From the NCBI GenBank assembly GCA_949285785.1, contig CASEAG010000035.1:1-58118 (forward strand): a stretch of DNA of 58,118 bases. The letters are read 5' to 3'. The notes below the pieces were generated by a model, which made no database searches, had not been told where the DNA came from, and worked only from the letters and a program-made list of their open reading frames with translations. This document shows, piece after piece, positions 1,867 to 6,706 of the stretch. Positions within the stretch are counted from its first letter, which is position 1; every line of letters begins with the position of its first letter. The stretch is from an uncultured Spirochaetales bacterium (lineage in GTDB: Bacteria; Spirochaetota; Spirochaetia; Sphaerochaetales; Sphaerochaetaceae). The translations under genes and the position numbers were made by a program.

Positions 1867-1868
1867 GT

Positions 1869-1940
1869 CATCTCCGAGGGGAATTGAACCCCTGTTGTCG
1901 GGATGAAAACCCGGTGTCCTAACCACTAGACGACGGAGAC
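1869..1940 (-). tRNA. tRNA-Glu (TTC)
   Basis: Complete cloverleaf on the minus strand with acceptor GTCTCCG/CGGAGAT, anticodon loop TTTTCAT (anticodon TTC) and T arm AGGGGTTCAATTCCCCT. The 3' CCA is not encoded. It is last in a three-tRNA operon. It differs from the adjacent tRNA-Glu by one compensatory acceptor pair (G7-C66). Confidence 0.95.
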
Positions 1941-1952
1941 AGGTGTCAGATA

Positions 1953-2024
1953 CATCTCCAAGGGGAATTGAACCCCTGTTGTCGGGATGAAAACCCGGTG
2001 TCCTAACCACTAGACGATGGAGAC
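1953..2024 (-). tRNA. tRNA-Glu (TTC), second copy
   Basis: Nearly identical to the tRNA-Glu at 1869-1940. The only differences are A7-U66 in the acceptor stem instead of G7-C66, a coordinated change that keeps pairing. The anticodon is TTC and CCA is not encoded. The two copies are 12 bp apart, so this is a tandem duplication. Confidence 0.95.
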
Positions 2025-2034
2025 ATCATGTTGT

Positions 2035-2107
2035 TGAGCCGTACTGGATTCGAACCAGTGACCCACGCCTTAAAAGGGCGTTGCTCTACCGGCTGAGCTA
2101 ACGGCCC
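2035..2107 (-). tRNA. tRNA-Lys (TTT)
   Basis: First tRNA of the operon. Acceptor GGGCCGT pairs with ACGGCTC (one G-U pair). The D arm is TAGCTCAGCCGGTAGAGCA, the anticodon arm ACGCC-CTTTTAA-GGCGT gives TTT, and the T arm is CTGGTTCGAATCCAG. CCA is not encoded. Confidence 0.95.
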
Positions 2108-2268: not shown

Positions 2269-3036
2269 TCACTCGACGTATCCGTCCTTGACGAACTGTT
2301 CCACTTCAGCCTGTATATATGGGGTCACCTCCCTGGGAGCTCCCTTGTACTTCAGGTCGGATATCTCAACGGAGAATTTCTCAGTATTGTCATTGCGATT
2401 CTCCTTGGTTGTCATCACAGCATGGAACTCTACGAAGCAACCATCGCATTTTCGGGTGTCGAAATAACGCATATTGTAATCTTCAATCGATGTCTCTATG
2501 CCAGACTCAGAGTCATAATCCGACTCGTTCCATCCTGTGGGGAGTTCAATCCTCAACACATCATCAATCGCGATTGCGAAGTTCGAAAGCTCAAAGCCTT
2601 TCGGCCGCGCGACAGGAGGATCCATATCAAGAACGAAAAGTCCATACTCCGTCTCGATTCTGACAGGCTCGGTATTAGGCTCCGGTAAGTAGAACGAATT
2701 CAAACCTGTCTTGTGTTTTTCCTTGAAATTATCATCTTCGTTCCACAGCTTCTGGAAGATGCTAGTCAGATTCATCTCAGCAGGAATGGATCTGGACATG
2801 TTTACTGCCTGATACGCCGTCGTCGTGTCAGCAGAATCATCTGAAGGCATGAGAGCATTTTTGCAGGCCAGGACCTCCTTGATGGCGGCAGCGACCTCTG
2901 CATCGCTTGCACTGGCACCATCGCCACCGACAGCCCCACTCTGCTCAGGAGTCTTGTTCGATCCGTTGCAGGAGACAGCAAAGACAAGCAGTGACGACAG
3001 GACAAGGACAGAGAATATGCGTAGGAATACTTTCAT
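2269..3036 (-). CDS. lipoprotein of unknown function
   Basis: 255 residues. A short basic start and hydrophobic core end in FAVSC at residue 23, which fits a lipoprotein signal peptide (spirochaete lipoboxes are relaxed), followed by a low-complexity polar linker. The mature protein is predicted soluble and anchored in a membrane; no enzymatic motif is recognised. A good ribosome-binding site (GGGAGG, 5 nt before ATG) supports the start. The gene is monocistronic, between its own promoter and a strong terminator. Its promoter spacer contains nine consecutive C on the coding strand, which suggests phase-variable expression of a surface or periplasmic protein. Function unknown. Confidence 0.7.
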   Translation of the reverse strand: MKVFLRIFSVLVLSSLLVFAVSCNGSNKTPEQSGAVGGDGASASDAEVAAAIKEVLACKNALMPSDDSADTTTAYQAVNMSRSIPAEMNLTSIFQKLWNEDDNFKEKHKTGLNSFYLPEPNTEPVRIETEYGLFVLDMDPPVARPKGFELSNFAIAIDDVLRIELPTGWNESDYDSESGIETSIEDYNMRYFDTRKCDGCFVEFHAVMTTKENRNDNTEKFSVEISDLKYKGAPREVTPYIQAEVEQFVKDGYVE

Positions 3037-3058
3037 GACGACCTCCCTTTCTGCCTGA

Positions 3059-3086
3059 AGTCTAACGGGGGGGGGTAGACGGTCAA
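3059..3086 (-). promoter_or_regulatory. promoter with G9/C9 tract in the spacer (candidate phase-variable promoter)
   Basis: On the minus strand: -35 TTGACC (3086-3081), then a 16-bp spacer that is mostly nine C (3075-3067), then -10 TAGACT (3064-3059). The lipoprotein ATG is at 3036 with GGGAGG just upstream. Gain or loss of one base in the tract would move the spacer toward or away from the optimal 17 bp. Confidence 0.6.
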
Positions 3087-3139: not shown

Positions 3140-3940
3140 TCAGGCTTCCTTGATGGCTCCAGTACCTGCAGATGACTTCAGCCGACGTCTCATACGGCCT
3201 GCGATGACCTGCACGAGCGATGAGGAGAGATCCCTGTCCCCGATTGCAACCGCATCCGCCAGATAGCCGTATTCGACAAGCTTCATCCTCCTGTCGTCTA
3301 GTGCCTCGTCGACAGGACTGATCAGGTTACTCAGCTGGTCGAGAAATGATTTGTACAGCGACTTCATGATCCTGTTGTCCGAGCACTCCACTATCTGGCT
3401 GTGGAAAGAGAAATCACGTACTCTGAAGTCCTCCACAGCTTCGGAACTGCCATATCTGGAGATGAGATCCACATCCTTTCTCATGTCGACGAGCATGCTT
3501 TCAAGCTTCTTGACGACAAGCAGCCTATCCTCTGAAGCGCACAGTGTCTTGACGGAGGACGCCTCCAGTCCCGCATAGGTATCCAGAAGATCCTCCAGGA
3601 ACTTCTGGTCCCCCTGACCTCTTGTCTTCATCGATGCGGATATCGAGTCGACATACTGGTCGAGGCTGTTGGTGTTCACATAAGGCCTTCTGCACTGGCT
3701 TACGGTGACAAGGCCCTTGGCCTCGAGTATTTTGAATGCCTCCCTCATCGTCCTTGCAGATACACCGTAGATTCTGCAAAGTTCGTTCTGGCTCGGCATC
3801 AGAGTACCCTGGAGGTACTGCCTGTCGAGTATGGCCTTCTCAAGCATGTTTACGACAGTTCTGACTTTTGATTGTCCACTCAAAGAGGATTTGGTGTATC
3901 CAGGATGGGGGTTGTGTCCAGATGATGACAAGCTCTTCAT
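3140..3940 (-). CDS. GntR-family transcriptional regulator, FCD (FadR-like) domain
   Basis: Winged-helix DNA-binding domain (SKVRTVVNMLEKAIL ... MPSQNELCRIYGVSARTMREAFKILEAKGL), then an all-helical FCD ligand-binding domain (DFRVRDFSFHSQIVE, later DLSSSLVQVIAGRMRRRL). Such proteins are dimeric repressors of carbon metabolism genes. It is divergent from the aldehyde dehydrogenase, its likely target. The start is uncertain: ATG 3940 has GGGAGG only 1 nt away, a TTG at 3931 lies 10 nt from the same GGGAGG, and the frame stays open to a GTG at 4045. A G8 tract at 3982-3989 lies upstream of the preferred start. The inducer is unknown. Confidence 0.8.
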   Translation of the reverse strand: MKSLSSSGHNPHPGYTKSSLSGQSKVRTVVNMLEKAILDRQYLQGTLMPSQNELCRIYGVSARTMREAFKILEAKGLVTVSQCRRPYVNTNSLDQYVDSISASMKTRGQGDQKFLEDLLDTYAGLEASSVKTLCASEDRLLVVKKLESMLVDMRKDVDLISRYGSSEAVEDFRVRDFSFHSQIVECSDNRIMKSLYKSFLDQLSNLISPVDEALDDRRMKLVEYGYLADAVAIGDRDLSSSLVQVIAGRMRRRLKSSAGTGAIKEA

Positions 3941-3981: not shown

Positions 3982-3989
3982 CCCCCCCC
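3982..3989. repeat. C8/G8 homopolymer tract upstream of the GntR coding region
   Basis: Eight C on the plus strand. On the minus (sense) strand it is G8 in the 5' region of the GntR transcript, between the predicted transcription start near 4078 and the preferred start codon. If translation began at the upstream ATG 4068, the reading would stop (TAG) right after the tract, and one additional G would place it in the GntR frame. Confidence 0.7.
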
Positions 3990-6562: not shown

Positions 6563-6706
6563 GATGCTACACCAGATGCTACACCAGATGCTACACCAGA
6601 TGCTACACCAGATGCTACACCAGATGCTACACCAGATGCTACACCAGATGCTACACCAGATGCTACACCAGTTGCTACACCAGTTGCTACACCAGTTGCT
6701 ACACTG
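6563..6706. repeat. 12-bp minisatellite, 12 tandem units
   Basis: Nine perfect copies of GATGCTACACCA (6563-6670) followed by three copies of GTTGCTACACCA (6671-6706, the last ending in TG). The unit length is a multiple of three, so frames stay open on both strands. One plus frame reads DATP repeats within a possible 92-residue ORF (6521-6799), but no start there has a convincing ribosome-binding site. Copy number probably varies between strains. Confidence 0.95.

Follow-up and report, generated by a model that had tools for sequence, protein, structure and literature searches.

In an uncultured gut spirochaete, lipoprotein genes are preceded far more often than other genes by promoters in which the spacer between the -35 and -10 hexamers contains a homopolymeric G or C tract. 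Promoters of the same build were found in related genomes, and the tract differed in length between copies and between species. The sequences suggest that these bacteria vary their surface through length slippage of the tracts. The window, that is, the whole stretch of 58,118 nucleotides analyzed here, is contig C35 of the source genome (2.05 Mb in 40 contigs) and carries one such promoter at 3059-3086. This locus is probably a contingency promoter that switches by tract slippage; the case for the class is strong, and that for the single promoter in the window rests on its membership in the class.

The promoter and the lipoprotein gene in the window

The plus strand at 3059-3086, read directly, is AGTCTAACGGGGGGGGGTAGACGGTCAA. 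On the minus strand, which is the coding strand, the order is TTGACC (-35 hexamer, 3086-3081), GTCTA, a C9 tract (3075-3067), GT, TAGACT (-10 hexamer, 3064-3059), TCAGGCAGAAAGGGAGGTCGTC and the ATG (3036-3034). The spacer GTCTACCCCCCCCCGT (3065-3080) is 16 bp long, the promoter is separated from the start codon by 22 bp, and a Shine-Dalgarno sequence GGGAGG (3042-3047, minus strand) is located 5 nt 5' of the ATG. Both hexamers are conserved in the nearest relative, genome G011, and the -10 hexamer was also recovered by an independent promoter scan. The elements described in the first-pass annotation (TTGACC, a 16-bp spacer with nine identical bases, TAGACT, and a lipoprotein gene with a good ribosome-binding site) were all present. 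The tract had been called a nine-G tract; the nine-base run at 3067-3075 is real, but the coding strand carries it as C, and it reads as G only on the plus strand.

The predicted lipoprotein gene (2269-3036, minus strand), identified by its ORF and lipobox, encodes 255 aa with the N-terminal lipoprotein signal peptide MKVFLRIFSVLVLSSLLVFAVSC and a lipobox, ...LLVFAVSC, whose Cys is residue 23. Profile searches assigned it to no Pfam family and gave no significant match in NCBIfam, and its AlphaFold single-sequence model was unusable (mean pLDDT 37). A search of IMG/VR with the window flank, aimed at other strains, found nothing.

Upstream of the lipoprotein gene, in the same orientation and 103 bp away, there is a gene for a GntR/FCD transcriptional regulator (3140-3937, minus strand, probable start 3937; Pfam GntR 1.5e-12, FCD 1.3e-9). 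Upstream of this gene a second tract, G8 on its coding strand (3982-3989, minus strand), has a poor promoter match (TGGAAA-15-TAGAGC), and the DNA of G011 differs at this position. It is a doubtful member of the class, and phase variation of the regulator through this tract is possible but unsupported. Elsewhere in the window, the unit GATGCTACACCA, 12 bp long, is repeated in tandem at 6563-6704 almost without mismatch (11.8 copies, 99% match); the repeat is open in several frames, and its copy number may change without a frameshift. Two near-identical tandem copies of tRNA-Glu and one tRNA-Lys are located at 1867-2107 (minus strand), and conceptual translation of these tRNA sequences accounts for an ORF at this place with the repeated peptide VRTPGFHPDNRGSIPLGD.

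The window promoter scored 9 of 12 matches in the independent scan. Comparable promoter-like sites in the region numbered 6 against 1.6 expected, so the hexamers by themselves are weak evidence. A dinucleotide model predicts 0.16 G runs of at least nine bases for the window, and a lone tract of this kind is not very rare. Both figures favor the reading that a nine-base run fell by chance between two weak promoter-like hexamers. The excess over chance is in the class to which the tract belongs, not in the single tract.

Tract promoters in the same genome

Nineteen G or C tracts of 8 to 10 bases were detected in the genome. Thirteen were located directly upstream of a lipoprotein gene, 30-72 bp from it and inside the spacer of a recognisable promoter; one of these (C7:14542), whose gene was missed by the lipobox script, was counted by eye. 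The flanks displayed a recurring design, such as TTGACA-AGAGGC-G10-TAGCCT and TTGACA-AGTGAAT-G9-TAGCCT, and several of the promoters are related copies rather than independent cases. Five further tracts (C16:87980, C39:71072, C8:557, C28:296876 and C5:41619) were inspected and left out of the class. The first of them, a G8 run, immediately precedes the start codon in a conserved gene that does not encode a lipoprotein (MTNIEFAALKKYGELIKQLF...), at G000:C16:87980-87987 (L012) and G011:C4:152305 (L090); the run is kept in both species and may act on translation rather than transcription.

In a sample of 1.11 Mb, a tract of at least 8 bases within 110 bp upstream was found for 11 of 39 predicted lipoprotein genes versus 1 of the 959 remaining genes (Fisher 8e-16). 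The sample consisted of the tract-bearing contigs, by which tract density is inflated and the lipoprotein contrast is not, and the exact counts are approximate, with genes and lipoboxes called by simple scripts. Intergenic G/C runs in this sample showed a second peak at eight to nine bases (6, 5, 8 and 6 runs at lengths of six, seven, eight and nine bases). In coding DNA, runs of the same four lengths numbered 39, 1, 1 and 2, with nearly none among the long ones. A straddling promoter and a downstream lipoprotein gene accompanied 12 of the 15 intergenic runs of at least eight bases (10 in G orientation and 2 in C orientation), compared with 0 of 93 per orientation for control runs of five bases.

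This specificity for lipoprotein genes and for spacers within one genome makes a chance origin of the window promoter very unlikely. Two C-oriented tracts of the genome have a strict promoter, and each is followed by a lipoprotein gene; like the retention of the window hexamers in G011, this argues against chance. Two lipoproteins of the class in this genome matched Pectate_lyase_5, a putative adhesive domain, one of them above the Pfam cut-off. Raised slippage through loss of mismatch repair was ruled out, as mutS and mutL are both present and intact, a point that counts against switching.

Spacer length and the optimum of the organism

The first-pass annotation had stated that one extra base would give the window promoter the optimal 17 bp, and the ordinary promoters of the genome agree with this. 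Tract-free promoters (TTGAC...TANNNT in upstream regions) had spacers of 15 bp in 3 cases, 16 in 6, 17 in 21, 18 in 15 and 19 in 2, with about one each in the control. Against this peak at 17-18 bp, 11 of the 13 tract promoters had spacers of 15-16 bp (Fisher 3e-5). In the Treponema genome G398 ordinary promoters also peaked at 17 bp (15 cases), and the 35 tract promoters collected in its family, from three genomes, all had 14-16 bp. Tract spacers in genus g16 ranged from 14 to 21 bp, mostly 16-19, and the ordinary promoters of g16 were too few to set an optimum. The short default is a rule in two groups, not in general.

In the window's genus the total spacer is nearly constant at 15-16 bp, and the flank shrinks as the tract grows. 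This could reflect selection that holds the length constant and leaves no room for free switching. The tract would then be a permanent structural element in this type of lipoprotein promoter, with a G-rich spacer setting promoter strength, supercoiling sensitivity or regulator binding. The range of 14 to 21 bp in g16 does not fit a length held constant. Moreover, the run may be G or C and may abut the -35 or the -10 hexamer, which a protein-binding site would hardly tolerate.

Tract length in copies and orthologs

Differences in tract length were found between promoter copies within single genomes. Three copies in G079 matched exactly for 25 bases upstream and 35 downstream of the tract and differed solely in having G9 or G10. 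Two copies of one lipoprotein start in G074 had G9 and G12, with one further indel, and the paralogs of G398 sharing TTGACAAAATGGC...TAATCT had G8 or G9. Homopolymer assembly errors may be present in some of the copies at contig ends.

Seven orthologous promoters could be compared between the window genome and G011. Their spacers were 16/17, 16/15, 17/17, 16/16, 15/16, 16/16 (the window's own) and 16/14 bp; four of the seven thus differed, by 1-2 bp, with the hexamers conserved. The comparison of tract length in related genomes, which the first-pass annotation had proposed as a check, revealed variation in the class and an unchanged 16 bp at the window locus. A fixed structural spacer would agree with this retained length, which persists in G011 despite an interrupted tract, and with the two other pairs of unchanged length. 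The different tract lengths between identical flanks and the four differing orthologs oppose it, and we consider it unlikely, though it is the most probable of the alternatives.

At the window locus G011 reads CCTCCCCCC, and its gene, the single ortholog found, is a remnant that has lost its start and first ~170 codons. Apart from this remnant, a clear copy of the window lipoprotein gene was not found in the other genus members searched. Both observations would suit a locked or decaying former switch, in which the promoter was formerly one of the slipping class and the gene is being lost in the window genome as in G011. Against this, nothing interrupts the C9 in the window, and the gene there has an unbroken reading frame together with its lipobox and Shine-Dalgarno sequence; we give this explanation slightly less credit than even the chance origin.

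Distribution among relatives

The pattern TTGACN{0,10}G8N{0,10}TANNNT had 171 matches, spread over 50 of the 139 family genomes, summed from the table and with overlapping alternative -10 hexamers counted separately, while the reversed pattern had 0. Across the taxonomic class, 119 of 395 genomes matched the G-tract pattern, compared with scattered single matches in the control. The pattern was common in Treponema, and genomes of family f24, to which G398 belongs, were rich in it, with up to 23 matches. At the closely examined loci of g16, g8 and Treponema nearly all downstream genes encoded lipoproteins, and in the window's genus about a third of all tracts of at least 8 bases, with or without a promoter, preceded one. 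With C on the coding strand, as in the window, the family-wide pattern had 20 matches versus 14 in the control and was not clearly enriched, a point in favor of chance at this locus. The orientation bias is strong (G on the coding strand, 171 versus 0 in the control; C, 20 versus 14), and no explanation for it was found.

A second architecture, TTGAC-G8-9-N7-8-TANNNT, in which the tract starts at the last base of the -35 hexamer, was observed at G000:C28:86158 and C38:36203 and was nearly exclusive in G350. Exact matches to TTGACA-N6-9-G9-TANNNT, among those listed (L136-L252; one genome per species, without a chance control), also came from many gut Clostridia, Bacilli, termite-gut Alphaproteobacteria, Lentisphaerae and others. 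The non-spirochaete matches listed, likewise without a chance control, often precede exported or membrane proteins. No earlier description of such a promoter class in gut spirochaetes was found in the open-access literature.

Proposed mechanism and significance

For the window locus we infer slippage switching, as at Treponema pallidum TP0126 and porA, as the best explanation. Slippage at the tract would change the spacing of the hexamers and with it the strength of the promoter. With the assembled spacer of 16 bp, one below the ordinary 17-18, the lipoprotein gene is probably silent or poorly expressed in the majority of cells, and a +1 slip would bring the spacer to the optimum and raise expression. 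Roughly twelve further lipoprotein genes each have a tract promoter of their own, and a population would then display a shifting combination of lipoproteins, presumably at the cell surface.

The first-pass proposal that the tract tunes the -35/-10 distance, so that the lipoprotein can be switched, is supported for the class by the contrast between lipoprotein and other genes, by the relatives with their empty reversed control, and by the length variation among copies and orthologs. It fares less well at the window locus, with a lone ortholog of the same 16 bp, an interrupted tract and a gene remnant there, and with C tracts barely above their control. We put forward, with belief and doubt about equally balanced, a wider scheme in which gut spirochaetes of the family and many Treponema would carry a promoter-based lipoprotein switch set of ~5-15 genes per genome, each with a slipping spacer. 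In some groups the spacers would be one bp short of the RNA polymerase optimum and the genes off by default, and single +1 slips would activate members at random, so that a combinatorial surface coat would arise with no need for recombination.

A mechanism already known from a few pathogen genes appears here, in uncultured gut spirochaetes, as a device that extends over a gene class. The device is tied almost exclusively to lipoproteins and comes with a testable rule, namely that tract spacers fall one base below the optimum of the organism itself. The signature TTGACA - 6-9 bases - G8-12 - TANNNT may serve as a simple finder of phase-variable surface genes in metagenome-assembled genomes, and the matches listed in unrelated gut bacteria, without a chance control, suggest that it may be of use beyond spirochaetes.

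Comparison with known phase-variable promoters

A homopolymer of at least 8 bases between the -35 and -10 hexamers characterizes spacer-tract promoters of the TP0126 and porA type, and the C9 within its 16-bp spacer conforms to this. The opc type, in which the tract includes or abuts the -35 hexamer, does not apply to the window promoter, with the 5 bases GTCTA between TTGACC and the tract. The -10 hexamer TAGACT 3' of the tract counts against the tprL type. The porA tract is about 9-11 G long.

The porA promoter of Neisseria meningitidis is described as having poly-G between -35 and -10, with expression set by spacer length (PMC7864442). It resembles the window promoter in having the homopolymer in the spacer and differs in its porin gene, its unrelated phylum and its longer tract. 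The N. meningitidis opc promoter has poly-C like the window promoter and controls a surface protein, but its tract overlaps the -35 region (PMC7864442), whereas the window tract begins 5 bp after it. Class members whose tract abuts the -35 hexamer are C28:86158, C38:36203, C25:11668 and most of those in G350.

The tprL and related tpr genes come from a spirochaete, encode putative outer-membrane proteins and have a poly-G of 7-11 that varies in vivo. For tprL the transcription start is the fourth base beyond the poly-G (PMC7864442), which places the tract outside the -35/-10 spacer, unlike in the window. More broadly, 24 of 46 polyG/C tracts of at least 8 bases in T. pallidum vary among Nichols clones (PMC10013896). 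Of the analogies drawn in the first-pass annotation, that with porA fits, while opc (tract over the -35) and tprL (tract a little 5' of the transcription start) have another architecture (PMC7864442).

TP0126 of T. pallidum, an OmpW homolog that was not named there, is the best-fitting analog. Its promoter is reported to have poly-G between -35 and -10, with 17-bp spacing best (PMC7864442). TP0126 and the window promoter share a spirochaete host and a homopolymer between -35 and -10, and TP0126 is a surface protein gene. TP0126 is one OMP gene of a pathogen with a poly-G tract, tested in E. coli, whereas the window promoter has a coding-strand C tract before a lipoprotein gene and belongs to a whole lipoprotein gene set in an uncultured gut spirochaete.
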